DNA of 50,662 nt from Oscillospiraceae bacterium (GTDB lineage Bacteria; Bacillota; Clostridia; Oscillospirales; Oscillospiraceae): contig JAFTVM010000046.1 of the NCBI GenBank assembly GCA_017465745.1, positions 1-50,662 on the forward strand, in the 5' to 3' direction. A model generated the notes under the pieces. That model did not search any database, was not told where the DNA came from, and saw only the letters and a program-made list of their open reading frames with translations. Shown piece after piece: positions 1 through 15,279 of this stretch (position 1 is its first letter; each line of letters opens with the position of its first letter). Both the position numbers and the translations under genes were made by a program.

Positions 1-31
1 ACCGCTTATTCCGGAAAGGTGGAGAGATAAT

Positions 32-172
32 ATGAAAGTTGTGATCGTAGGTGGTGTGGCAGGCGGAGCCACCGCAGCAGCAAGAATCCGCAGACTGGAC
101 GAGCAGGCTGAAATCGTTGTATTCGAGAGGTCAGGCTTTATACAACACTTATCTGGAGATGTGAGACGATGA
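32..172 (+). pseudogene. N-terminal remnant of an FAD/NAD(P)-dependent CoA-disulfide reductase-type oxidoreductase
   Basis: The 46-residue frame starts at an ATG preceded by GGTGGAGAG. Its first 37 residues read like the Rossmann FAD-binding start of the CoA-disulfide reductase/NADH oxidase family ([20 protein letters not shown], then [11 protein letters not shown]). In intact members this continues into a Cys-containing redox motif over more than 440 residues. Here homology stops after about base 140 and the frame closes nine residues later. This is a truncated remnant, without the redox Cys, the NAD domain or the dimerisation domain. It lies just left of the proposed attachment site, so this flank has also been rearranged. 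Confidence 0.7.
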
Positions 173-216
173 TCAAAATACTGTTTGTTTGCCACGGCAC
201 AAATTCCTGCAAGTAG
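169..216 (+). pseudogene. 5' fragment of a low-molecular-weight protein tyrosine phosphatase gene (left end of integrated element)
   Basis: The ATG at 169 follows a plausible Shine-Dalgarno (CTGGAG). Its first ten codons give [10 protein letters not shown], the same peptide that begins the intact phosphatase at 9016. The frame then reads TNSCK and stops at 214-216. All five base differences from 9016-9045 are silent. I read this as the original 5' end of the phosphatase gene left at the left junction when an element inserted into it. A decayed paralogue would be the alternative. Confidence 0.65.
184..194 (+). other. Candidate attL core
   Basis: TTTGTTTGCCA here is identical to 9031-9041. It lies within codons 6-9 of the truncated phosphatase start, with a second identical 11-bp block (ATGATCAAAAT) just upstream. 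Confidence 0.55.
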
Positions 217-286
217 GAAAATGCCTAGAGCCGCAACGGATTTTCGGATTGAAGCCTCTGCGCCTACACCACGCTTACACCAAACT

Positions 287-304
287 ATTTGTAAGCATTT
301 GTAA
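287..304 (+). repeat. Two ATTTGTAA direct repeats near the left junction (possible integrase arm sites)
   Basis: ATTTGTAA occurs at 287-294 and 297-304, a 10-bp period, about 100 bp inside the left junction, and the second copy runs on into CCAACA. The right end carries the related TTTTTACCAA pair. Tyrosine integrases of the Tn916 type bind such direct repeats through an N-terminal arm-binding domain. The role is inferred from position only. Confidence 0.35.
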
Positions 305-349
305 CCAACATTTGAGCCTTGATTTGACGAAAAAACAGCATATAAACCC

Positions 350-380
350 AAGCCCGGCGGGAGTTGATCCCGCCGGGCTT
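350..380 (+). repeat. GC-rich hairpin, upstream copy of a pair flanking the GIY-YIG gene
   Basis: AAGCCCGGCGGG (350-361) and CCCGCCGGGCTT (369-380) form a perfect 12-bp stem with a 7-nt loop. There is no T run on the right, so it is not a standard rightward terminator. An almost identical hairpin lies at 1451-1484 beyond the next gene. The 217-584 interval otherwise holds only the palindrome at 516-541 and no convincing ORF. Confidence 0.7.
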
Positions 381-515
381 GCTGCGTATTGGGACAGGAG
401 TGGCATTGACAATGGTACAGATATTGCGTACCAAATCTATATGATTGTCAACGGTGAAGTATCTGGCCACATCCCTGGTGATCCCCCAAAAGGCTTTTTC
501 GCTCTTGATTGTATT

Positions 516-541
516 CTAATAATCATTATAATAATTATTAG
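516..541 (+). promoter_or_regulatory. Near-perfect 26-bp A+T palindrome upstream of the GIY-YIG gene
   Basis: CTAATAAT at the left end mirrors ATTATTAG at the right, and the whole 26 bp reads the same on both strands apart from one mismatched pair. It ends 43 bp before the start codon of the next gene. That is a typical position for an operator, but no regulator is identified. Confidence 0.45.
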
Positions 542-584
542 AACAGAGCTCGTTATATGCTTGAAAGTGCAGGGAGAGAGAAAT

Positions 585-1415
585 ATGGCAATCAGCAAAA
601 AGCTTGAGATGATATACCACAATGGCCAGCCCGATGGCATCCGCTCCATCCGGCGCCATCTGTCCACCATGACCACTTACGTGATTCCACGTCCGCTGCT
701 GTCCGAAGCGAAGAAGCTCACCGGCATCAATCGCCCCGGCATCTACTATCTCATCAGTGAGAATGATGACAATAAGATCGCTCAGATCTATGTGGGCCAG
801 ACCAGAAACGGCGTCAGCCGACTGGACGATCACAACCGATCCAAGGACTTCTGGAACAAGGCGATCATGTTCCTGGCGGACAGCAAGACCTTCTCCCTGG
901 ATATGATCAGCGGCCTTGAAGCTTATGCCATCAGCAAGGCCACGGAATCCCGGCGGTACAAGGTGGAGAATACCGTCAATCCCAAGTATGAAATCGATGA
1001 ATATGATCTTCCGCTGATCGAGGAAGTATACGAGGAGATCAAGTTCATCATGGCAACCCAGGGCTATAAGATGGAGAACTCCAAGACCGCTATGGATGCC
1101 GCCAATGTGCTGCACACCACGAGAAATGGCGTCCAGGCCTTCGGTATTTACGACGGCGAGAAATTCGAGGTCCTGGAAGGCTCCGAGGTCGATATGGGCA
1201 GAAAGTGCCACTCCGACAAGATGGAGCAGCACCGCCAGACCGCCATTCAGAACGGCAATATTTCCAGCATCGGCGGCAAGTTTAAGCTGAATGTATCCGT
1301 TTCCTTTACATCCCCCAGCTCCGCCGCCATGTTTGTCCTGGGCGGCAGCACCAACGGCTGGGTCGAGTGGAAGAATAAGGACGGCAAGACGCTGGACGAG
1401 TTGTATCGGAAATAA
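585..1415 (+). CDS. GIY-YIG nuclease family protein with C-terminal DUF4357
   Basis: The 276-residue protein starts at the ATG behind AGGGAGAGAG; the frame is open further upstream but without a ribosome site. Residues 52-54 are GIY and 69-71 are YVG (the YIG position), followed by R79 and a glutamate near residue 110, in keeping with the GIY-YIG nuclease fold. The C-terminal 50 residues match DUF4357, with SPSSAAMFVLGGSTNGWVEW and GKTLDEL. Proteins of this architecture are found on mobile islands and near restriction or defence genes, but their substrate is not established. It stands alone between two matching hairpins, next to an A+T palindrome, like a self-contained cargo cassette. Confidence 0.8.
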   Translation: MAISKKLEMIYHNGQPDGIRSIRRHLSTMTTYVIPRPLLSEAKKLTGINRPGIYYLISENDDNKIAQIYVGQTRNGVSRLDDHNRSKDFWNKAIMFLADSKTFSLDMISGLEAYAISKATESRRYKVENTVNPKYEIDEYDLPLIEEVYEEIKFIMATQGYKMENSKTAMDAANVLHTTRNGVQAFGIYDGEKFEVLEGSEVDMGRKCHSDKMEQHRQTAIQNGNISSIGGKFKLNVSVSFTSPSSAAMFVLGGSTNGWVEWKNKDGKTLDELYRK

Positions 1416-1450
1416 GAATTTTTCATCAGTAACTTCATAATGACCAGACT

Positions 1451-1484
1451 AAGCCCGGCGGGGGTTTGAACTCCCGCCGGGCTT
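1451..1484 (+). repeat. GC-rich hairpin, downstream copy of the pair flanking the GIY-YIG gene
   Basis: The arms AAGCCCGGCGGG (1451-1462) and CCCGCCGGGCTT (1473-1484) are identical to those at 350-380; the loop is longer. Sequence after both copies is also alike (TTGTTGTGTGTTG here, TTGCTGCGTATTG there). Lying 35 bp after the stop codon, it could act as a terminator. Confidence 0.7.
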
Positions 1485-1646
1485 GTTGTGTGTTGAGCAA
1501 AAAAGTGTGATGGATATCACCCAACATCATCATCAATAATTTGCGATCTAGGGAGAGGTGATGTTGCGTTGCTTCAAGAATCTTTCGGTAGGTTGGATAT
1601 CACTAGTGAATATTTTGTCAATTAACCAGATACAGTACAGCTTGTA

Positions 1647-1682
1647 AAATCCCTCCTGCAGAGTATTTGACAGGAGGGATTT
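1647..1682 (-). terminator. Probable intrinsic terminator of the leftward cargo operon
   Basis: AAATCCCTCCTG (1647-1658) pairs perfectly with CAGGAGGGATTT (1671-1682) around a 12-nt loop. It lies 25 bp beyond the stop codon of the small leftward ORF. The leftward transcript leaves the stem into TTTACAAGC, a weak U-tract. The 1485-1646 interval shows nothing else I can name. Confidence 0.6.
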
Positions 1683-1707
1683 GCGGTTTGTCCTGAAAAT
1701 AGAACAC

Positions 1708-1944
1708 TCAGGAATTCAGCTTGTCGTGCAGTGCTTTCAGTTTTTCAAGATTGCTTCTGGAAAGACCGCTGGTTTTTTCGGGCGCAGGGTCATCCTGGGG
1801 CATATTGACTATCCATATCAATCTGCGGTGTCCCTGTCGGTTCGGAATCCATTGGGGTTTTACAATAGATAGGGAAAGGATAGTGCCAAGGGCAGGACGA
1901 TCCATATCACTGTAGGGAGCAATGAAGTTATCGATATGCATCAT
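1708..1944 (-). CDS. Small hypothetical protein overlapping the end of the membrane protein gene
   Basis: This 78-residue frame begins at ATGATG inside the last codons of the upstream gene, overlapping it by 17 bp in another frame. The sequence has ordinary composition, with basic and aromatic residues in the middle and a helical C-terminus (LSRSNLEKLKALHDKLNS). I recognise no family. The overlap suggests translational coupling, although the same frame extends upstream without a stop, so a frameshifted C-terminal extension of the membrane protein is also possible. A hairpin terminator follows 25 bp downstream, in keeping with it being the last gene of the operon. Confidence 0.45.
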   Translation of the reverse strand: MMHIDNFIAPYSDMDRPALGTILSLSIVKPQWIPNRQGHRRLIWIVNMPQDDPAPEKTSGLSRSNLEKLKALHDKLNS

Positions 1945-3520
1945 CTTCAATAAGTTTCTTGAGGTTTTTCTCGCTTGCTTGTCCAATTTGATAATTTATA
2001 TAGGCCTCGCTCCATTGCAGTTTGTATAATGGTTCGTCTGCCCTTTCGATGCACTCTCGATCTCGCTTTGGCAACACCCAGCGAATATCAGAAGCATATT
2101 TCTCATAAAACTTATAAACCAATTTAGTACGAATTCGCTTTACTGCCTCATTTGCAGGAAGTCGTGTTAACTCGGCGTCGTCTTTACAGCAATAATCAAT
2201 TGCTTCTCGCAAAATCTTGTCAAACGCACATGTCATCATAGAATAGCCATCGTCAGTAGGCAAATACAGCAGACAGCTATTTCCGCAAATTTTAGCATTA
2301 AAATGATTCACGAGCTCATCTTCAATCACAGGTTTTGCTGCCTTAAACAGGTCTTCCTGTGATGTAACCGGTGCATATGACAAGTTATAGCCAAAAGGTG
2401 CATATATTTTCGAACCTGGTTGTGGCACAAGGGTTCCGTATGGACATATAAAAATGCTAAATGTTTTTTCCCCAACCAATGATTTCAATGAATACTCATA
2501 GATATGCAGGATTCCTAGCTCAGAGACATCCACAGACCGGACACTGCTGGGTTCCCTTCGGCACCAGTATGCATGGCCTTCGCCATCGCGGATTAACTCA
2601 ACAAATGCTTTAACATCCTTAATTGTTTGCAAACAAATGGGAAGAGTGGGAATTAACCCATATTGGAGTGCAGTCGGATTGAATGAATTTGTTAGTTTCT
2701 CTCTCTCGGCAAGTTCTGCCATACCAGGGAGCAGATAGTGATTGTTTTTTGCCAAGCTTTCAGCAAAAGCTTTATTTAACGAATTACCCTCCAGGGAACT
2801 GTATGCCCCTAAAATTTGATAATGCTTTTCATCAATATATCGAATACGGCCAAAGACTGAAGGTATCGGATTGCTTTTTTCTGCGCCTAAATATCGGTAG
2901 TTTTGGTCTAATTCTTTTTTCCAGTTTGCTGCATTTGATGTGGGTGCCGGAATAATTTCCAACCACGTATTGATATCAAAAGGCTTCGGTAAGCTAGGAT
3001 AAATCCCTGCAGGAATAGAGGAAGAAATAACTAGCGGCTCGTCCGTGTGTAAAATATTTATACGGTATCCTTTTTCGTCAACTGTAAAGGATCCCTCCAC
3101 ATGAACAAATTTCCCATCAAGTTCGCGTGAGAGTTGCGGCACAGCTTTTAGATTTGTTACCTCTATAGCGCAAGAAGCATCTCTCTTCGGATCTGCGCGA
3201 CTGGTTGTGTTAGCCATATTTGTTGTGGTTTCTTTTGTATCTTGTACTACTTCAACGTTACTACAAACCCTATTAGATAAACATGTTGCAACAATCGGCA
3301 GAACGAATACGCAAGCGTCACACAGCCATTCAAAAAAGTTGTTCATTGTTCCGAAAAACAAAACGGCAGTGAAGGCCCGCATTAACCAATCAAGAATAAA
3401 AAACGGGAGAATAATGATTTTGCGAATCTTCCCAGTTTTAGCATAAACAGCTTTAATAATACTCAGCGGAACCACAACTGAAACAATCACTTGCAAAATG
3501 ACGTCAATAATAAAAGTCAT
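1928..3520 (-). CDS. Hypothetical membrane-anchored protein, element cargo
   Basis: The 530-residue protein starts with GGGGAGGG ahead of the ATG. The N-terminus has a hydrophobic segment at about residues 3-22 and a hydrophobic stretch at about 36-84 that could hold one or two more membrane helices. A polar linker at about 90-115 follows, then some 410 soluble residues with several cysteines. No motif links it to a family I know. The gene is much richer in A+T than the flanking chromosome. It is the middle gene of a leftward set: a broken coiled-coil gene ends 67 bp upstream and a small ORF overlaps its end. The layout of membrane anchor plus large soluble domain on an island resembles cargo such as defence effectors or sensors, but that is only analogy. 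Confidence 0.6.
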   Translation of the reverse strand: MTFIIDVILQVIVSVVVPLSIIKAVYAKTGKIRKIIILPFFILDWLMRAFTAVLFFGTMNNFFEWLCDACVFVLPIVATCLSNRVCSNVEVVQDTKETTTNMANTTSRADPKRDASCAIEVTNLKAVPQLSRELDGKFVHVEGSFTVDEKGYRINILHTDEPLVISSSIPAGIYPSLPKPFDINTWLEIIPAPTSNAANWKKELDQNYRYLGAEKSNPIPSVFGRIRYIDEKHYQILGAYSSLEGNSLNKAFAESLAKNNHYLLPGMAELAEREKLTNSFNPTALQYGLIPTLPICLQTIKDVKAFVELIRDGEGHAYWCRREPSSVRSVDVSELGILHIYEYSLKSLVGEKTFSIFICPYGTLVPQPGSKIYAPFGYNLSYAPVTSQEDLFKAAKPVIEDELVNHFNAKICGNSCLLYLPTDDGYSMMTCAFDKILREAIDYCCKDDAELTRLPANEAVKRIRTKLVYKFYEKYASDIRWVLPKRDRECIERADEPLYKLQWSEAYINYQIGQASEKNLKKLIEDDAYR

Positions 3521-3587
3521 ATATATCCCTCCCCAATAGTGATCCCAATCTCATTAATCTACCGGTACGATATGGCCCCGGTTGTAA

Positions 3588-4106
3588 TTATCGAATAACT
3601 GACCATAACCGCCGCTGTGCGTGCAATCTTTGGGCATAGTCGCTAAGACGATTAAAGCGTTCAGTCAAGTTTTCTTTTTGTGTACGCTTTTCTTTTGACC
3701 AGCACCACTTAAATTTAGATAGATCCCCTTCGACTTGTTTTATTTCTTGTGTAATTTTATGTATTTGCCGATCGAGCGCACATATCATCGGGCTACTCTC
3801 AGCGTTTTTTTGGTTAAGCTTTCCCGCCAACGTTTGAGCCTCTTTAGCATACAGTCTCTCTAAAGCTTGAGCATAATTAAGATCGTGCTTACGAATAAGG
3901 ACAGGTTCTAAGTCAAAACGAAATTGAACCTGTTTGAAAATTTGTTGTGCCAAGGGTTTTAGAATACCGCTGCGCAATTTACATTCTTCACGATCACAGA
4001 AACTGATATCTTTGGCACATTTCCTGGCTTCCTCTTGAATTTCCATGAATTCATCGGAATTTCGCAAATTAGAAGGGTATTCTCTAATGACTTGATTTGT
4101 TGGCAT
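3588..4106 (-). pseudogene. Coiled-coil-rich hypothetical protein, 5' end removed by IS110 insertion
   Basis: The readable host part begins near 4095 (REYPSNLRNSDEF) and runs about 165 residues to the stop at 3588. It is rich in Glu, Lys, Gln and Leu with long predicted helices (RQIHKITQEIKQVEGDL, KENLTERFNRL). The frame stays open on the far side of 4106, but there it is only the reverse complement of the transposase gene. The first ATG on the junction side is at 4106. The missing 5' part is not visible beyond the IS. It probably formed an operon with the membrane protein gene downstream. The function is unknown. Confidence 0.55.
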
Positions 4107-5420
4107 CGATGTGAGCAGCAAAAACAATGTTGTCTGTCTCATGAAGCCGGACGGAACCAAATTCAGTACATTCTCTGTGCAAAACAACCTGGGCGGTGCT
4201 AAAATACTCTCAGAGAAGATCGTGTCGGCACTGGACAAGCTCCAGCTGGGCGAAGTGACCATCGGTATGGAGGCAACCTCTATCTATGGCGACAGCCTGG
4301 TCTACGCCCTCCGGGAGGATGGCAAGCTAGGCCGTTATCAACGAAAGATCCATGTCCTCAACCCCAAGCAGGTTCGCAAGTTCAAAGAAGCTTATCCGGA
4401 TCTACCTAAGAATGACTTTGTGGATGCCTTCGTCATTGCTGACCATCTCAGATTCGGCAGAATTGCTTCGGAGGTCTACATGGATGACTACCGCTACCGT
4501 TCCCTGCAAACCTTGACCAGAGCCAGATTTGATGCCGTTCAGAATCTGACCAGAGAGAAACAGCGCTTTGCAAACTATCTGTTCCTAAAATGCTCCGGTA
4601 TTGCTCAGGACAAAGACATACCCAATACCAGTGCGACTACACTGGCACTCATGGAAGCCTTTGAATCCGTAGATGATCTGGCAAACTGTGACCTTGAGAC
4701 CTTGACTGCTTTTGTGTCTGCTGCGGGCCGAGGTCGGTTCGCTGACCCGGAAGCAACAGCGCAGGCTATACAAGCTGCTGCCAGAGGTTCCTACAGGCTG
4801 CCAAAAACTGTCAATGACTCCATTAACCAAGCTATGTCTGTCTCCATTGCTTCTATGCGAGCACTAGAGAGTCAGATCAAGGTGCTGGAGAAAGCCATTG
4901 AACAGCAATTCCAGATTATCCCCAACACCTTGACCTCTATCCCAGGTATCGGTCCGGTCTACTCTGCCGGTATCATCGCTGAGATTGGCGACATCCGCCG
5001 CTTTGAATCTCAGGCTTCTGTTGCCAAGTACGCAGGACTTGTCTGGACACAGCACCAGTCCGGCGACTTTGAAGCTCAGAATACAAGAATGATCAAATCC
5101 GGCAACCGTTACCTTCGCTACTACCTGCTGGAAGCCGCCAACTCCGTGAGAAGATGCGACTCCGAGTTCCGGCGCTACTATGACCTCAAATTCCATGAGG
5201 TCAATAAGTTCCAGCATAAACGCGCACTCGCTTTAACTGCCAGAAAACTGGTTCGTGTTGTCTTTCGACTGCTGAAGGACAACCGCCTGTATACCGTGTC
5301 GGAGAGCTGATTGCAGCAGCTTCTCTAGGCGTTAAACAGGCCCTGTCGAAAAACGCAGTTGGCAGGGCTTTGGTTGGTGTACGCTTTTTTGCCGATACTG
5401 GCCGGCTTTGGACACTAACT
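4087..5420 (+). mobile_element. IS110-family insertion sequence, boundaries approximate
   Basis: Host coding sequence runs to within about 10 bp of the transposase start, so the left end must be close to 4087-4095. The right end lies somewhere after the transposase stop, before the leftward promoter at 5487. The roughly 110-180 bp 3' non-coding segment contains a hairpin (GCCCTG at 5340-5345 with CAGGGC at 5363-5368). IS110 elements carry a bridge RNA in a non-coding end. With essentially no left end here, that RNA would have to be in the right end, as in the IS1111 subgroup, or the left end has been lost. Confidence 0.55.
4111..5310 (+). CDS. IS110 family transposase, probably inactivated at its start
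   Basis: The protein has the N-terminal DEDD (RuvC-like) domain and the C-terminal Tnp_20 domain (SIPGIGPVYSAGIIAEIGDI, then KSGNRYLRYYLLEAAN with the serine). The only start open from here is GTG at 4111, giving 399 residues without the first catalytic Asp of the GIDVS motif. That Asp codon is at 4108-4110. Upstream in the same frame the sequence reads ATG ACT TGA, then FVGIDVSS, so a nonsense codon at position 3 separates a natural-looking ATG at 4087 from the body. The transposase as encoded should lack a metal-binding residue and be inactive unless the stop is bypassed. Confidence 0.8.
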   Translation: MSSKNNVVCLMKPDGTKFSTFSVQNNLGGAKILSEKIVSALDKLQLGEVTIGMEATSIYGDSLVYALREDGKLGRYQRKIHVLNPKQVRKFKEAYPDLPKNDFVDAFVIADHLRFGRIASEVYMDDYRYRSLQTLTRARFDAVQNLTREKQRFANYLFLKCSGIAQDKDIPNTSATTLALMEAFESVDDLANCDLETLTAFVSAAGRGRFADPEATAQAIQAAARGSYRLPKTVNDSINQAMSVSIASMRALESQIKVLEKAIEQQFQIIPNTLTSIPGIGPVYSAGIIAEIGDIRRFESQASVAKYAGLVWTQHQSGDFEAQNTRMIKSGNRYLRYYLLEAANSVRRCDSEFRRYYDLKFHEVNKFQHKRALALTARKLVRVVFRLLKDNRLYTVSES

Positions 5421-5486
5421 ATTGAAAAATTGTTTTCATTCGTCTATTGACATCACACCATTAGACTTTACGGGCAATCTAAAACA

Positions 5487-5515
5487 ATTATAAACGAAAA
5501 AGCTACGAATTTCAA
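5487..5515 (-). promoter_or_regulatory. Leftward sigma-A promoter behind the IS110 copy
   Basis: Read leftward, TTGAAA (5510-5515) and TATAAT (5487-5492) are separated by 17 bp. It points at the IS110 and the truncated coiled-coil gene beyond it. It may therefore be the original promoter of the cargo operon, now separated from its genes by the insertion. Confidence 0.5.
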
Positions 5516-5549
5516 TAATTTAGCAAAACGAATGAATCATATGCATTAG

Positions 5550-5580
5550 CCTCCGGTTTCGACCGGAGGATTTCTTTTTT
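5550..5580 (+). terminator. Strong intrinsic terminator
   Basis: CCTCCGGT, a TTCG tetraloop and ACCGGAGG are followed by ATTTCTTTTTT. It insulates the replication region from rightward transcription coming out of the IS110 copy. Confidence 0.8.
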
Positions 5581-5645
5581 GCCATTAGGTGAAATTTTTT
5601 GTTTGAAGGTGTTTCGTTTTTGGGGCAAAAGCGTGCGGTAGGTAA

Positions 5646-5847
5646 GTGAAAGGAAAAATTCTTTCGTTGAGGGTTGACTTTGACCCCCTCAAATGTCCGG
5701 ATATGTGAAAGGACTTTTTCTCAACAAATCTGACTACGGAATCTCCTATTTAGGTGACTGCCATAGGCATCACCCAAATGGGGTGTTGAAGGTTTTTTTG
5801 AATCAAGGTTTACAAATTGGTCCTTGAAGGTCGGAATTAGTGAAGGA
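5646..5847 (+). repeat. Three iteron-like GTGAA(A)GGA repeats, possible replication origin
   Basis: GTGAAAGGA occurs at 5646-5654 and 5705-5713, and GTGAAGGA at 5840-5847, each followed by a pyrimidine-rich TTTCT-type tract that can fold back. Between them lie an inverted repeat (TTGAGGG 5667-5673, CCCTCAA 5686-5692) and a hairpin around GGTGACTGCC/GGCATCACC (5753-5774). The stretch is A+T-rich and sits just upstream of a RepA-like ATPase. This is the usual layout of an iteron origin, though three imperfect copies are few. No protein-coding gene is convincing between 5311 and 6052. Confidence 0.4.
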
Positions 5848-5881
5848 ACTTTCTTTCAGCCGTACCTTGATAACTGAATAC

Positions 5882-5979
5882 CCGTCATCCGGGGGACCAC
5901 AACCGCGAAGACGCTGCACCTACACAGACGAGCGTGAAATGCCGGTGAGAACCACGGGCGCAAATCTACTGGATGACGG
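5882..5979 (+). ncRNA. Candidate structured RNA upstream of the rep gene
   Basis: CCGTCATCC (5882-5890) pairs exactly with GGATGACGG (5971-5979), enclosing an inner helix ACGCT/AGCGT (5911-5915 with 5931-5935) and a further short GCC/GGGC pairing near 5941-5960. The composition is GC-rich, unlike the A+T-rich DNA just upstream, and there is no good ORF. It could be a leader that controls rep, a counter-transcript target or a riboswitch. I do not recognise its class. Confidence 0.45.
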
Positions 5980-6052
5980 CCTACAAGACAAAAACATCGG
6001 AGGGATACAACCATGTTCTTAATCAAAACACAACGAAGGGAGGGAAAGCATC

Positions 6053-7186
6053 GTGGAAAAACTGCACCTTATCAGCGCAGACACGCTGTACTACACACCA
6101 CTTGACCATCCTCGAATGCTGATCGACGGCATCCTGTCCGACGGACTTGCCATCTTGTCCGGTGATTCCAAGATCGGCAAAAGTTGGATGATCCTTTGGT
6201 TCTGCCTGAAGATCAGCCAGGGAGAACCGATCTGGGGTCTACCCACATCCAAGACCGATGTGATCTACCTTGCCCTGGAAGACCGGGAATGGCGTGTGCA
6301 GCAGCGCATGCAGGAGCTGACCGACGAACCGCCGAAGAATCTTCACTTTGGCTTCTCCTGCGGTAAGCTGGGTGCGGAACTGGAAGATCAGATACTGGCT
6401 CTGCTGAAGGAATATCCGGCAACCGGCCTGCTCTTCATCGATACGCTGCAGATGGTCCGGGATAATGTTTCATCCAGGGTCAACGCCTATGCCCAGGATT
6501 ATCGAGATCTGTCTGCGCTGAAGAAGATTGCCGACGATCACAACATGTGCATTTTCCTTGTTCACCACAACCGCAAGGAACATGACGGCAGCAATGTCTT
6601 CAACGACATGACCGGCTCTACGGGAATCATGGGTGTGGCAGACACCTGCATGGTACTGCGCAAGGAGGACCGTTTTGGTAACGATGCGGTTCTCAGCATC
6701 ACTGGCCGGGATATAGAAGAAAAACGGCTAAAGCTGACCATGCGGAAAAATGTGTGGGAAGTCACGGAAGCGCTGAATGCTACCCAGCTGCATCGGGAAC
6801 GCATACCTCATTATCTTTTCGATATTGCTGATTACCTGCTGAAAGAAAACGGTTTTGAGGGCAAGGTCACTGACTTGCTTGCCGCTATCGGGGATGAAGC
6901 CACTCCAGCGAATGTCGCCAGCAAGAACATCACCAAGCACTTTGGCGCTGTGTTCGAGCCGTTAGGGATCAAGATGAAACCTAAGAGAAAAGCTGAAGCA
7001 CGGCTAATGGTCTTCTGGTTTGATGACGATGATGACGGTAATGACGGTCAAAGGAGGAGCGAGACTCTTGTGTCACTGCGTCATCAGTATGACGACGCTT
7101 CCTCGCTCCCCCCAGTATCGTCACAATCGTCATTTGCGTCATGGACGGATCTTACAGGTTCAGACGAGGAGCTACCCTTCGAATAA
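6053..7186 (+). CDS. RepA-like AAA/RecA-fold ATPase (replication helicase of the element)
   Basis: The 377-residue protein starts at GTG 6053 behind GAAGGGAGGG. Walker A is at residues 37-44 (GDSKIGKS), LALEDREW at 73-80 matches the RepA-type loop, Walker B is LLFIDT at about 126-131, and VHHNRK follows. This is the hexameric RepA/AAA_25 layout used by plasmids and integrative elements to unwind their origin. The C-terminal third is divergent, has a run of Asp encoded by GAT/GAC repeats, then a Ser-rich tail ending in DEELPFE, which recalls the acidic tip of SSB proteins. The neighbouring iteron-like repeats support a replication role. It is followed by xis and int on the same strand. Confidence 0.75.
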   Translation: MEKLHLISADTLYYTPLDHPRMLIDGILSDGLAILSGDSKIGKSWMILWFCLKISQGEPIWGLPTSKTDVIYLALEDREWRVQQRMQELTDEPPKNLHFGFSCGKLGAELEDQILALLKEYPATGLLFIDTLQMVRDNVSSRVNAYAQDYRDLSALKKIADDHNMCIFLVHHNRKEHDGSNVFNDMTGSTGIMGVADTCMVLRKEDRFGNDAVLSITGRDIEEKRLKLTMRKNVWEVTEALNATQLHRERIPHYLFDIADYLLKENGFEGKVTDLLAAIGDEATPANVASKNITKHFGAVFEPLGIKMKPKRKAEARLMVFWFDDDDDGNDGQRRSETLVSLRHQYDDASSLPPVSSQSSFASWTDLTGSDEELPFE

Positions 7187-7302
7187 CGGTCTCAAGAAAA
7201 TGGCAGCGGCATTTTCTTAGCAAGCATCGCCTTTAGACGGCAATTTCCATTTTGGGCAAACCCAAACCCTTTTAGCACGACAAAAAGAACAGGAGGAATT
7301 TG

Positions 7303-7527
7303 ATGGAGAACACCTGCAGTAACTGCAAAACTATTATCACCCCGGTATGGCGGCGTTACACGCTGACCATCGAAGAAGCTGCCGGGTATTACCACATCGG
7401 TGAGAGTAAGCTTCGGTCTATCGTGGACATGCATCCGAACGGGAATTTCTATGTCATGAACGGAAATCGAGTTTTGATCAAAAGGGAAAAATTCGAAGAA
7501 TATTTAGACCAAGCAACGGCTGTATAA
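7303..7527 (+). CDS. xis: Excisionase of the Tn916 type
   Basis: The 74-residue protein starts at ATG 7303, seven nucleotides after AGGAGG. The core TIEEAAGYYHIGESKLRSI is the winged-helix start of Tn916-like excisionases, with VLIKREKFEEYL near the end. It directs the integrase towards excision by bending the attachment DNA. It precedes the integrase gene by 111 bp, the standard xis-int order. An N-terminal CxxC (CSNC) and basic residues precede the domain. Confidence 0.85.
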   Translation: MENTCSNCKTIITPVWRRYTLTIEEAAGYYHIGESKLRSIVDMHPNGNFYVMNGNRVLIKREKFEEYLDQATAV

Positions 7528-7577
7528 CCCCAAACTCGGCAAATGTTATACGGCATCTGATCATTTTTCTATACAAG

Positions 7578-7617
7578 GAGCCAAACTTGTGATATACTTA
7601 CCTCGCAAGTTTGGCTC
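7578..7617 (+). promoter_or_regulatory. Hairpin and possible promoter between xis and int
   Basis: GAGCCAAACTTG (7578-7589) pairs perfectly with CAAGTTTGGCTC (7606-7617). The loop holds TATACT (7593-7598), a good -10, but no clear -35 lies 17 bp upstream. The stem ends 9 bp before the integrase Shine-Dalgarno. It could attenuate read-through from xis into int or act as a protein-binding palindrome. Confidence 0.45.
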
Positions 7618-7638
7618 TCCTGATTGAAAGGAGACGCT

Positions 7639-8838
7639 ATGAGCGAAAAAAGACGAGATAATCGCAACCGGATTCTCCACGAGGGAGAATACCAGCGCGC
7701 TGATGGGAGGTATCGTTACCGCTACATCGACGAAAACGGACAAGAGAATAATGTGTACAGCTGGCGTCTGGACAAGAATGATCGGATGCCAAAAGGCAAA
7801 AAGCCGGAGCTGTCTTTGCGTGAGAAGGAACGGCAGATCCAAGCGGATCTGTTTGACCACATCGTGACCAAGGGTGGCAACTATACCGTACTGGAACTGG
7901 TGGAGAAATATCTGTCGGTCAAGACCGGGGTTCGAGCCAACACAAAAGCTGGGTACAAGACAGTGACCAACCTGCTGAAGAAAGAACCCTTCGGTCAGCT
8001 TCGGATCGATAAGGTTCGGCTTTCCGATGCAAAGCTATGGCTGATCAAGCTGCAGCAGAAGGATGGAAAGAGCTATAGTTCTATCCATTCAATCCGTGGT
8101 GTGCTTCGACCTGCTTTTCAGCTGGCGGTGGATGATGATCTGATCCGCAAGAACCCCTTCCAGTTTGAACTGGCATCGGTCATCGTGAATGATTCTGTGA
8201 CCCGTGAAGCCATCACCCGGAAGCAGCAGCGTGACTTCCTCAACTTTGTAAAAGAGGATAAGTACTACTGCCGCTACCACGATGCCTTCTTCATTCTGTT
8301 CAATACCGGCCTTCGTATTTCGGAGCTTTGCGGTCTTACTGTATCGGACATTGAGTTCGATCAAAACAGGATCAAGGTGGATCATCAGCTGCAGCGAACC
8401 AGTGAAATGCAGTATGTGATTCAAGCGCCAAAGACAGAAAAGGGTATCCGCTATGTGCCGATGACAGACGAGGTTGCTGCCTGTTTCCGCAGGATCATTA
8501 AAGGCAGAAAGAAACCCCGGAAAGAGCCTATGATCGACGGTCACGCCGGTTTTCTGTTCTTGGACAAGAACGATATGCCGATGGTAGCGCTGCACTGGGA
8601 GAAGTACATGGCCCATGCTGTGGACAAGTACAACAAGACCTACCGCGTGCAGTTGCCCAAGATCACGCCCCATGTGTGTCGTCACACCTTCTGCTCCAAT
8701 ATGGCTAAGTCCGGTATGAACCCCAAGACGCTGCAGTATATCATGGGTCACAGCGACATCAGTGTGACGCTGAACACTTACACCCACGTTCAATTCGATG
8801 ACGCTAAGACGGAACTGCTCCGGGTAGCCGGCAGATAG
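7639..8838 (+). CDS. int: Tyrosine integrase, Tn916 family
   Basis: The 399-residue protein starts at ATG 7639 after AAAGGAG. The N-terminal 60 residues match the arm-binding domain, and the core-binding domain spans about 80-170. The catalytic set is R226 (TGLRISEL), a lysine near 265-268, H345 and R348 (HVCRHTF), H371 (MGHSD) and nucleophile Y381 (NTYTH). All are present and full length agrees with an active enzyme. It catalyses integration and, with Xis, excision. The gene ends 178 bp before the intact phosphatase gene, and repeats in that gap look like arm sites. Confidence 0.93.
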   Translation: MSEKRRDNRNRILHEGEYQRADGRYRYRYIDENGQENNVYSWRLDKNDRMPKGKKPELSLREKERQIQADLFDHIVTKGGNYTVLELVEKYLSVKTGVRANTKAGYKTVTNLLKKEPFGQLRIDKVRLSDAKLWLIKLQQKDGKSYSSIHSIRGVLRPAFQLAVDDDLIRKNPFQFELASVIVNDSVTREAITRKQQRDFLNFVKEDKYYCRYHDAFFILFNTGLRISELCGLTVSDIEFDQNRIKVDHQLQRTSEMQYVIQAPKTEKGIRYVPMTDEVAACFRRIIKGRKKPRKEPMIDGHAGFLFLDKNDMPMVALHWEKYMAHAVDKYNKTYRVQLPKITPHVCRHTFCSNMAKSGMNPKTLQYIMGHSDISVTLNTYTHVQFDDAKTELLRVAGR

Positions 8839-8842
8839 TCCA

Positions 8843-8879
8843 TTGGTAAACTCTTGATTTTTACCAAGGTTTTTACCAA
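8843..8879 (+). repeat. TTTTTACCAA repeats near the right junction (possible integrase arm sites)
   Basis: TTTTTACCAA occurs at 8858-8867 and 8870-8879 (12-bp period), with an inverted TTGGTAAA at 8843-8850. They follow the integrase stop codon directly and lie about 150 bp from the right core. Confidence 0.45.
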
Positions 8880-9015
8880 CGATACCCGAGAAAGCATGAA
8901 AAGATTTGCGAGGATTTGAGAAAATCCAAAAATCGCACTGAACAATTAACATCAAAAAGATAAGCAAATACAAGTATTTAAGAAGAAATTCGATACTTTT
9001 AAGGAGATATATAAG

Positions 9016-9444
9016 ATGATCAAAATCTTATTTGTTTGCCATGGAAATATCTGCCGCAGTCCTATGGCGGAATTTGTGATGAAGGATCTGGTGGAAAATG
9101 CTGGACTTTCCGGGGAGTTTGAGATCGCTTCCGCGGCGGTGAGCCGGGAGGAGTTGGGCAACCCTGTGTATCCCCCTGCCCGGCGGGAGCTGGCAAAACA
9201 CGGCATCCGCTGCGACGGCCATGCAGCCCACCAGATCACCCAGCGGGAGTATGACGACTACGATCTGATCTACTATATGGACCGCAGCAACGCCCGGTAC
9301 TTAAACCGGATGCTGCGGGAGACTTCCAAGTGCTATCCCCTGCTGAGCCACGATGTGGCGGATCCCTGGTACACCGGTGATTTCACCCAGACCTGGAACG
9401 ATATTCTGGAAGGCTGCAAGCGGATCCTGGAGGAGAACCGATGA
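9016..9444 (+). CDS. Low-molecular-weight protein tyrosine phosphatase
   Basis: The 142-residue protein begins at ATG 9016, nine nucleotides after AAGGAG. The P-loop CHGNICRS (CX5R) is at residues 8-15 and the general-acid segment is DPWYTG near 116-121. These are the hallmarks of the LMW-PTP/arsenate reductase-like fold, which dephosphorylates phosphotyrosine. The length is normal. Its first ten codons and ribosome site appear to have been supplied by the integrated element, since a silent variant of the same codons is left at 169-198. It overlaps the next gene by 4 bp. Confidence 0.9.
   Translation: MIKILFVCHGNICRSPMAEFVMKDLVENAGLSGEFEIASAAVSREELGNPVYPPARRELAKHGIRCDGHAAHQITQREYDDYDLIYYMDRSNARYLNRMLRETSKCYPLLSHDVADPWYTGDFTQTWNDILEGCKRILEENR
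9031..9041 (+). other. Candidate attR core
   Basis: TTTGTTTGCCA here is identical to 184-194 and lies in codons 6-9 of the intact phosphatase gene. Confidence 0.55.
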
Positions 9445-9977
9445 TGGATATGGAACGTCTGGAAGCGGCGCTGGCGGAACTGCCTCTGCTGGGATATTTT
9501 CCCGTGGAACCCAAAAGCCTGGAATTTTCCGACCGGATCCGCTGGATCTGTGAGAATGAGTGTCCCATGTGCAATAAAACCTGGGCCTGTCCGCCTGCTG
9601 TGGGCAGCGTGGCCAGCTGCCGGGACAAGTGCCGCAGCTTCGAAAACTGCCTGATGATCGCCACCATCACAGAGGTGGATGACATCACCAATATCGACGA
9701 GACCCTGGCCACCCGTCCTGAGCATGAAGCGGTCACCAATCAGGTGGCGGCGCTGATGGAAGAGCAGGGCGTGGCACCCTACATCCTCTCCACCGAGGCC
9801 TGCGCCATCTGTGAGCGGTGTGCCTGGCTGGACGGGCAGCCCTGCCGCCATCCGGATCGGATGCACCCCTGTGTGGAGAGTCACGGCATTAACATCATCC
9901 CCACGCTGGAGGAAAACGGCATCGAGTTCCAGTTCGGCGCCAACGTGGTGACCTGGGTGTCGCTGCTGTTTTATTGA
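9441..9977 (+). CDS. DUF2284 domain protein (predicted metal-binding)
   Basis: This 178-residue protein has many cysteines in pairs: CENECPMCNKTWACPP near 37-52, then C-X3-C-X5-C, and a second cluster (EACAICERCAW) with CRHPDRMHPC. This is the DUF2284 pattern, thought to bind metal or an iron-sulfur cluster; the reaction is unknown. The ATG overlaps the stop of the phosphatase gene (ATGA), so the two are translationally coupled. A strong terminator follows. Confidence 0.85.
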   Translation: MMDMERLEAALAELPLLGYFPVEPKSLEFSDRIRWICENECPMCNKTWACPPAVGSVASCRDKCRSFENCLMIATITEVDDITNIDETLATRPEHEAVTNQVAALMEEQGVAPYILSTEACAICERCAWLDGQPCRHPDRMHPCVESHGINIIPTLEENGIEFQFGANVVTWVSLLFY

Positions 9978-13956: not shown

Positions 13957-15279
13957 TCAGGAGACCTTTTCAGACTTGGTTTTGACGAAGCGCTCCAGAA
14001 CGGGGATCATCAGCACGCAGATGACCGCCGCAGTGAAGCCGCCGTTGTAAACGCAGAAGCCGCCGTGCATGTTGGGCACGCTGGTGACCAGCACATAGTG
14101 TGCCAGGCCTGCCACAGCCCCCCAGAACCAGCCGTAGCGGCTCGCCACAGGGCTCAGGCCGTTGGCGAAGCACAGGCCGATGGCGATGGCCTGGGCATTG
14201 ATGGTCATGGCGAAAGCGCCGCCGGCGAGGGAAGACAGCCAGCCGAAGACAAAGGAGCCAACCACGTAGCCCAGCATGATGGGCCAGACGTTGCCGGGAT
14301 GGGAGCCGGAGTTACAGGTGCACAGCATGCAGAAGATGATGCCCAGGGTGACACCGTTGAAGGACGCGCCGATGGCATTGTAGTAGGCCAGGATGAACAG
14401 GCCGTAGATGCCCACATTGGTCAGGAACACGGCCTTGCCCAGGGTGCCGGAGACGTTGCCCACATGATCCTTGGCACACAGCAGCTGCATATAGTCCTTG
14501 GGCTTGCAGCCCAGGGCGATGCCGCCCAGGACGCACAGGCCGAAGACGATGATGCAGAAGATGTTGACGGTGGACTGGGAAGCGATCTGCAGGGTCTCCG
14601 CGCCGGGAGCGGCGGGGAGGTCGACGCCCATGGTCTTGTACAGGGTGGCGTTCAGGAAGAAAGCCATGAGGCACACGGGAACGGCGGCGGAGTACAGGTC
14701 GAAGCCCTTGTGGACCTTGGGGGCGTGAGTCAGGCCGGCGGGCAGCAGGAAGCCGATGAACAGGCCCACGAGCAGAGTCACCACCAGGCCGGGCAGATTG
14801 AAGCCCACAGTCTCGGCGTTGGGGTAGCGCACCAGCAGATCGGAGATCAGGGGGGCGATGCCGGTGGAGAAGAGCATGGCGTTGGCATTGGCGGCCAGCT
14901 TTTCGCGCTTCACCAGGCAGTAGACCACCACACCCAGCACGGTGGGCCAGATGTTGATGATGTGCATGCCCCAGGAGCCGAAGCCGATGGTCAGAATGGT
15001 GGCAAAGGTGGACACATTGTTACAGGTGGCACCGGTGGCCACATAGATGCCCAGGCAGCACAGACCAACCAGACCCATGTTCAGGAAGGTGGCTGCATAG
15101 CCGCCCAGGGCGAAATAGTTGGTGGTGATCTTGCCGGGGTTGCTGAGGATGGTCCACAGGCCGGAGAGCATGGTGCCACGGTCGGGCATGCAGAATGCAC
15201 CCACGATGAAGCAGGCGGAAATAAACGCGAAGAACAGCTTCAGGAAGCTGGATTCGGAGAGGTTTTTGATTTTGTTCAT
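13957..15279 (-). CDS. DUF1576 polytopic membrane protein
   Basis: This 440-residue protein has some ten or more hydrophobic helices and glycine-rich loops (FGSWGMHIINIWPT, CNSGSHPGNVWPIMLG) that match the DUF1576 family of Clostridia. No transport activity is established for the family. It follows folD on the same strand, separated by a hairpin, and so ends a folate one-carbon cluster. A role in moving a one-carbon or related metabolite is possible but only suggested by position. Confidence 0.8.
   Translation of the reverse strand: MNKIKNLSESSFLKLFFAFISACFIVGAFCMPDRGTMLSGLWTILSNPGKITTNYFALGGYAATFLNMGLVGLCCLGIYVATGATCNNVSTFATILTIGFGSWGMHIINIWPTVLGVVVYCLVKREKLAANANAMLFSTGIAPLISDLLVRYPNAETVGFNLPGLVVTLLVGLFIGFLLPAGLTHAPKVHKGFDLYSAAVPVCLMAFFLNATLYKTMGVDLPAAPGAETLQIASQSTVNIFCIIVFGLCVLGGIALGCKPKDYMQLLCAKDHVGNVSGTLGKAVFLTNVGIYGLFILAYYNAIGASFNGVTLGIIFCMLCTCNSGSHPGNVWPIMLGYVVGSFVFGWLSSLAGGAFAMTINAQAIAIGLCFANGLSPVASRYGWFWGAVAGLAHYVLVTSVPNMHGGFCVYNGGFTAAVICVLMIPVLERFVKTKSEKVS

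Follow-up and report, generated by a model that had tools for sequence, protein, structure and literature searches.

The window analysed here is the whole 50,662-nucleotide contig JAFTVM010000046.1 of an Oscillospiraceae bacterium (assembly GCA_017465745.1), which is contig G000:C85 of a genome (G000) that is 95% complete. Codons 1–10 of a low-molecular-weight (LMW) phosphatase gene occur in it twice, at 169–198 (ATGATCAAAATACTGTTTGTTTGCCACGGC) and at 9016–9045 (ATGATCAAAATCTTATTTGTTTGCCATGGA), and the 8.85 kb between the two starts carries a Tn916-type integrase and an excisionase. We consider it very likely that this DNA is an integrative element whose Tn916-type integrase recombines in the start of the phosphatase gene, the start being restored from the element. 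The features that define the locus are as follows (coordinates in the window, strand in parentheses).

1..141 (+): truncated 5′ end of a flavoprotein gene; Pfam Pyr_redox_2 only below the cut-off
140..198 (+): old start (attL side), consisting of about 29 bases with a ribosome site that resemble the right end of a 'type B' element (a label coined in this analysis), then codons 1–10
184..194 (+): left core TTTGTTTGCCA, from sequence comparison
195..350: element left end, resembling the left ends of G028:C74 and G091:C102
7303..7527 (+): excisionase, Tn916-Xis family (Pfam, 2e-19)
7639..8838 (+): tyrosine integrase of Tn916 type, 399 residues (Integrase_DNA, 6e-31; Phage_integrase, 7e-36)
8839..9015 (+): element right end, with direct repeats TTTTTACCAA at 8858 and 8870
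9016..9041 (+): putative element-borne start (ATG, codons 1–8 and two bases of codon 9), its extent taken from relatives, ending in the right core TTTGTTTGCCA at 9031–9041
9016..9444 (+): LMW phosphatase, 142 residues, intact (Pfam LMWPc, 3e-30)
9441..9977 (+): DUF2284 protein, the partner gene in many relatives

Direct comparison confirmed what the first-pass annotation had read from the window: the two starts differ at five of 30 bases, every difference being silent, and share an exact 11-bp core, TTTGTTTGCCA, at 184–194 and 9031–9041; Pfam domains likewise identified the integrase and excisionase reported at the right end. A degenerate start pattern (up to three mismatches) has two occurrences in the window, the maximum across 100 dinucleotide shuffles being zero. 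Past codon 10 the left copy continues as TNSCK followed by a stop, and genome G000 contains a single match to the phosphatase protein at E 0.001; the left copy is therefore not a second phosphatase gene, and a separate paralogue was ruled out. The core overlies the codons for the CHGNICRS loop, which we take to be the catalytic P-loop of the phosphatase. In the right end of the element, a ribosome site (AAGGAG) lies at 9001–9006.

The contribution of the element to the gene was delimited by comparing relatives that share upstream DNA but differ in the phosphatase. In G146 and G457, which belong to different genera, the upstream DNA is identical over 2,750 bases (11 of 11 windows of 250 bases); the identity continues through ATG + 26 bases, meaning 26 bases beginning with ATG, and diverges from the next base, with the gene beyond this switch being 0.62 identical over 160 bases and 0.52 over 400 (ungapped). 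G138 and G128 (upstream 0.976–1.000, gene 0.863) and, with a weaker contrast, G073 and G022 (0.980–0.996 versus 0.865) show their first coding difference at that same base. This cross-genus identity, ending where it does, indicates that the element carries the ribosome site, the ATG, codons 1–8 and two bases of codon 9. A set of 108 element-borne starts, in which some genomes are counted twice, comprises 83 DNA forms and 25 protein forms. Over codons 3–9 the 83 forms differ by 0.208, 0.023 and 0.411 at the three codon positions, and thus the DNA of the element is constrained by a protein sequence that is the host gene's own. A ribosome site was scored in 101 of the 108, using permissive four-base motifs without a control.

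The target was examined at 76 of 82 distinct places with a related integrase (30 in the window's genus, 29 in the order, 16 in IMG/VR and one further region; the six left out of the tally comprise three from the genus and three from the order), and a phosphatase was called adjacent if it was more than 40% identical and at most 600 bases downstream of the integrase. At the 57 loci with an integrase of at least 47% identity, 35 have an adjacent phosphatase, nine have a start copy followed by other DNA, five reach a contig end and eight have neither; below 47% (n = 19), one locus (46.97%) has an adjacent phosphatase and 18 do not. Among 494 confirmed relatives in genome_contigs, the best 80 gave 62 with the phosphatase, nine with a start copy (one of which, L306, sits at a contig end), five at a contig end and four with none. 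The two tallies partly overlap (G146, G016, G070 and G091 are in both) and are not additive. Most loci with an integrase of at least 47% identity thus use one site, which is not the low-specificity or AT-rich targeting of a promiscuous integrase; its core has a consensus of about TTYRTNTGCCA and would lie within about codons 5–9 of the phosphatase gene. The phosphatase–DUF2284 stretch, whole or in part, was matched at the DNA level in 114 of 136 genomes of the window's genus, and a related integrase (E 1e-60) in 28 of them. The closest integrase (91%, in G070; L111 and L106) is cut near codon 379, and its last codons adjoin a start copy some 17 kb away.

An occupied and an empty site are represented, on sequence comparison, by G095 and G104. 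In G095 a 17.9-kb element lies between two start copies; its left flank (787–1030), old start included, corresponds at 96% to G104 14384–14626, which there continues directly into the phosphatase, and 960 bases of its right flank match G104 at 94%. Positions 1–791 of G095 match G104 about 7 kb further upstream, and therefore another insertion also separates the two genomes. In the complete genome AP018533.1, two starts 10.9 kb apart surround an element with MobA/MobL, CHC2 and VapE-like domains, and three consecutive starts with two integrase-like open reading frames (ORFs) are present in Eubacterium ramulus 21. The proposal of the first-pass annotation, an element of about 8.9 kb inserted into the 5′ end of the phosphatase gene with rebuilt first codons, was largely right: site-specific insertion is borne out by the loci of relatives and the G095/G104 pair, and a replacement start with its ribosome site, carried by the element, by the pairs G146/G457, G138/G128 and G073/G022.

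Comparison of relatives establishes, at the level of sequence, which site is targeted, that the start is element-borne and where the switch falls, as well as the occupied/empty pair and repeated insertion at one site; it also suggests the following mechanism. The Tn916-type integrase would recombine within about codons 5–9 of the LMW phosphatase gene, and the crossover would leave the start used until then beyond the opposite end of the element. The end of the element itself, carried in attP, would provide the ribosome site, the ATG and codons 1–8, so that the protein is restored, and successive insertions at one site would leave old gene starts behind. In the window, Int and Xis are presumably active, expression of the phosphatase presumably comes from the element side, with read-through from int as one possible route, and the element appears to have entered a start left by an older type-B element.

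This last point rests on the left copy. Positions 140–199 match five type-B right ends at 80–90% (L128, L114, L107, L101 and L116; the genomes are G091, G028, G117, G140 and G146); a type-B integrase or its end lies just upstream in four of these, and G117 has no integrase match in the 2.8 kb examined. The displaced start was therefore probably left by an older related element, rather than being native. That the left copy is the original start of the phosphatase gene, as the first-pass annotation had assumed, with no earlier element, is accordingly quite unlikely. Native starts must exist somewhere, the left copy has a ribosome site and is followed by a proper element left end, and it also gives weaker, shorter matches (74–78% over about 45–50 bases) to other starts; against this stand the five type-B matches and the finding that starts in the genus without a nearby integrase (G104, G067 and G012) have another type of upstream sequence. 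The DNA further left raises a separate question. Bases 1–141, from a flavoprotein gene that is presumably CoA-disulfide-reductase-like by resemblance, are exactly the last 141 bases of contig G000:C29 (4,256 bases), so the DNA to the left of the old start is not established and the flank is unsafe. We give even odds to an assembly artefact at position 141, in which case the old start would be real but the flavoprotein fragment beside it would not be its chromosomal neighbour. The overlap of exactly 141 bases at the ends of both contigs fits this account, 141 being the highest k that a widely used metagenome assembler applies by default, as does the integrase DNA that type-B ends in relatives carry at that position; but an assembly-graph edge that joins two contigs is usually supported by reads, and the same sequence would result if DNA between the flavoprotein gene and the older element had been deleted. 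Deletion and misassembly both fit the left flank. The C29 flank was also considered as the native upstream region of the phosphatase and rejected: proteins of C29 match only three fetched regions besides the window, and hence no conserved neighbourhood was seen.

Local duplication, or homologous recombination between phosphatase genes with the integrase incidental, could in principle produce two starts, and the copies are indeed similar and short. However, such integrases occur at the same place in many genomes and the right ends of the elements are common across genera where the gene is not; the cross-genus identity of the right end, which stops at the switch point in the gene, led us to reject this explanation, which we regard as extremely improbable.

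Several observations weigh against insertion by an element of this kind. The eight misses among the 57 loci with an integrase of at least 47% identity comprise an interrupted G070 integrase (L062), two partial matches (L189 and L223), a start copy longer by one codon (L220), three unexplained loci (L085, L218 and L222) and L200 (G272), where 134 bases separate an integrase of 50% identity from a downstream LMW phosphatase of another kind (CTGNTCRSP, 28% identity), to which the target may have shifted. Four of the best 80 genome_contigs loci also have neither phosphatase nor start copy: L235 (the G070 integrase again), L249, where the start copy escaped the pattern because two G after the core are absent, L277, where the start is broken within the core, and L281. 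On a tree of 73 integrases, with start-copy and contig-end rows scored as other labels, the phosphatase label requires 13 changes, of which at least ten are forced, so that phosphatase-site integrases are not one clean clade; the label is nevertheless clustered, none of 500 shuffles being as low. The 11,794 codon differences between starts include, besides 7,857 silent ones, 3,937 that alter the residue, and the 2,750 identical bases in two genera could in part be a binning error of metagenome-assembled genomes, although the phosphatases differ. The uninterrupted locus that the first-pass annotation expected in relatives was recovered as the G095/G104 pair for a related element, but no empty site of the window's own element was found in the relatives searched. 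No excised circle (attP) was seen: a pattern scan of viral_contigs with the predicted attP of the window element gave zero matches, and the right end of L209/L210, which equals that of L211 but then continues into other DNA, fits either a tandem or a circle. Finally, a terminator-like site falls between int and the start in 14 of 108 right ends, against 0.25 in shuffles, which speaks against read-through in some relatives.

The first-pass annotation had also credited the element with a promoter, which our scans do not support. No sigma-70-like promoter was found in 8700–9100 of the window (shuffles average 0.9), and the right ends as a group are not enriched (15 of 108 with a sigma-70-like site versus a mean of 22.8, range 17–32, across 20 shuffles). 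The single terminator-like site in 8700–9100 is inside the phosphatase gene, with none between int and the start, and 94 of the 108 right ends are also free of such a site in that interval. Read-through from int into the phosphatase is possible where no terminator-like site intervenes; control of the phosphatase by the element is conjectural.

Some pairs of start copies enclose no integrase. Such segments include ones of 1,077 bases in G070 (His_Phos_1), 1,013 in G087 and 1,403 in G085 (the latter two without a Pfam family), 2,404 in G031 (GH31) and 2,796 in G008 (AbiH and a methyltransferase); on the short segments PADLOC matched only the G008 methyltransferase, to part of mad2. The left end of the G070 segment is 77–91% identical to those of G087, G085 and G008 and 88% identical to that of an integrase-bearing element in G092. 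These segments may be decayed elements, of the kind known as cis-mobilizable elements (CIMEs), or units moved in trans. A bolder possibility, which we hold doubtful, is a gene-capture system that uses the phosphatase start for docking: resident integrases would move in trans any DNA lying between two start copies, integrase-free segments of 1.0–2.8 kb with one or two genes included, and every unit would end in a ribosome site followed by a start codon, so that the last inserted always starts the phosphatase. At L136, L144 and L162, which have no nearby integrase, small variable genes lie upstream of the phosphatase and the left-end hairpin is present; these genes are possibly remains of old insertions.

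The proposed mechanism appears to match that of the integrative and conjugative element (ICE) SXT of Vibrio cholerae in prfC, a precedent for insertion in the 5′ end of a gene with a replacement start, and that of the dusA islands. In more than 200 bacteria, the latter are described as carrying a putative integrase and occupying the 5′ end of one gene at a single site (PMC4482086), with the dusA 5′ sequence coming from the island (PMC4482086; IMEVchUSA3, PMC8409611). Insertion in a gene 5′ end is common to all three, and N-terminal codons carried by the element were found here in relatives. Unlike SXT, the present element has another target and another integrase, leaves the first ten residues in the window unaltered and has no recognisable promoter; unlike the dusA islands, it targets an LMW phosphatase in Clostridia and has a Tn916-type integrase. 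The Integrase_DNA and Phage_integrase domains and the Tn916-family Xis are shared with Tn916/Tn1549. Tn916 is described as integrating with low specificity (PMC4701971), whereas a single site is used at most of the present loci. No relaxase or coupling protein was found with Pfam among the seven ORFs of the window element that were scanned, shorter ORFs falling outside the scan; these seven therefore provide neither the conjugation module of Tn916-type elements nor the relaxase that, with its own integrase, marks an integrative and mobilizable element (IME), whereas the AP018533.1 element has both relaxase (MobA_MobL, 5e-89) and integrase. Streptococcal ICEs and IMEs are described as accreting in tandem at one att site and decaying to CIMEs that keep only attL and attR (PMC5704250). 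Accretion at one site is a common feature, but here it occurs at a gene start, where each step replaces the start and leaves the old one.

Among the matches listed, relatives on Enterococcus plasmids have an integrase 45–46% identical and one pneumococcal and one enterococcal phage record each have one at 45%; we take these to be Tn1549 and Tn916. Ten phage records have a related integrase, at 42–73% identity. Two of those examined are classed as Heliusvirales (58.7% and 53.2%), and the 58.7% record ends in a phosphatase start. In L316 (PV036456.1, 1–9500), the end of a 52-kb phage record covers roughly the first 126 codons of a phosphatase, with the related integrase of that record about 6.6 kb away.

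The word 'phosphatase' does not occur in PMC4701971, PMC5704250 or PMC9092696, and no description of an LMW-phosphatase target was found in the open-access literature searched, within which both the target and the integrase group appear to be undescribed. For mobile elements of gut Oscillospiraceae and Lachnospiraceae, the locus is an attachment site that recurs and is now mapped, with named isolates of Coprococcus catus, Blautia wexlerae, Eubacterium ramulus and Pseudoflavonifractor capillosus among the carriers. With its core on the codons of the CHGNICRS loop, it exemplifies an integrase that exploits a strongly conserved gene segment. Tn916-type integrases that mostly keep to one target offer a comparison for working out what sets the promiscuous Tn916 apart and might find use in integration vectors, and the old starts left behind are a record of insertion order.

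Inside its two ends, the element of the window contains the following further features.

349..381 (+): terminator-like hairpin just inside the left end, with a near-copy at 1451–1485
585..1415 (+): cargo protein with GIY-YIG and DUF4357 domains (Pfam), PADLOC candidate defence family PDC-S14
1928..3520 (−): cargo protein of 530 residues, with no match in Pfam, PADLOC or PHROGs
4111..5310 (+): IS110-family transposase (Pfam)
6053..7186 (+): AAA_25 protein, primase/helicase-like

The left end resembles G028:C74 (type B) and G091:C102 by eye, and blastn gave 68% over 107 bases to L114 and 88% over 25 bases. It contains the short repeats CGCYTACACCA at 261 and 272; the short direct repeats in each element end may be arm sites of the integrase. 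Of 31 left ends, 12 have a terminator just inside (11 of the 17 from the window's genus and one of the 14 from elsewhere), versus nine of 310 shuffles, and with these counts its presence in every left end was dropped as a general feature. The similar hairpins at 349–381 and 1451–1485 flank the candidate defence gene (585–1415) as if it had arrived as a unit, and an 89% identical relative of its protein is encoded upstream of the G002 integrase (L096). The IS110 transposase probably entered the element later; a 224-codon ORF on the opposite strand (3588–4262) overlaps with it and was probably cut by it.

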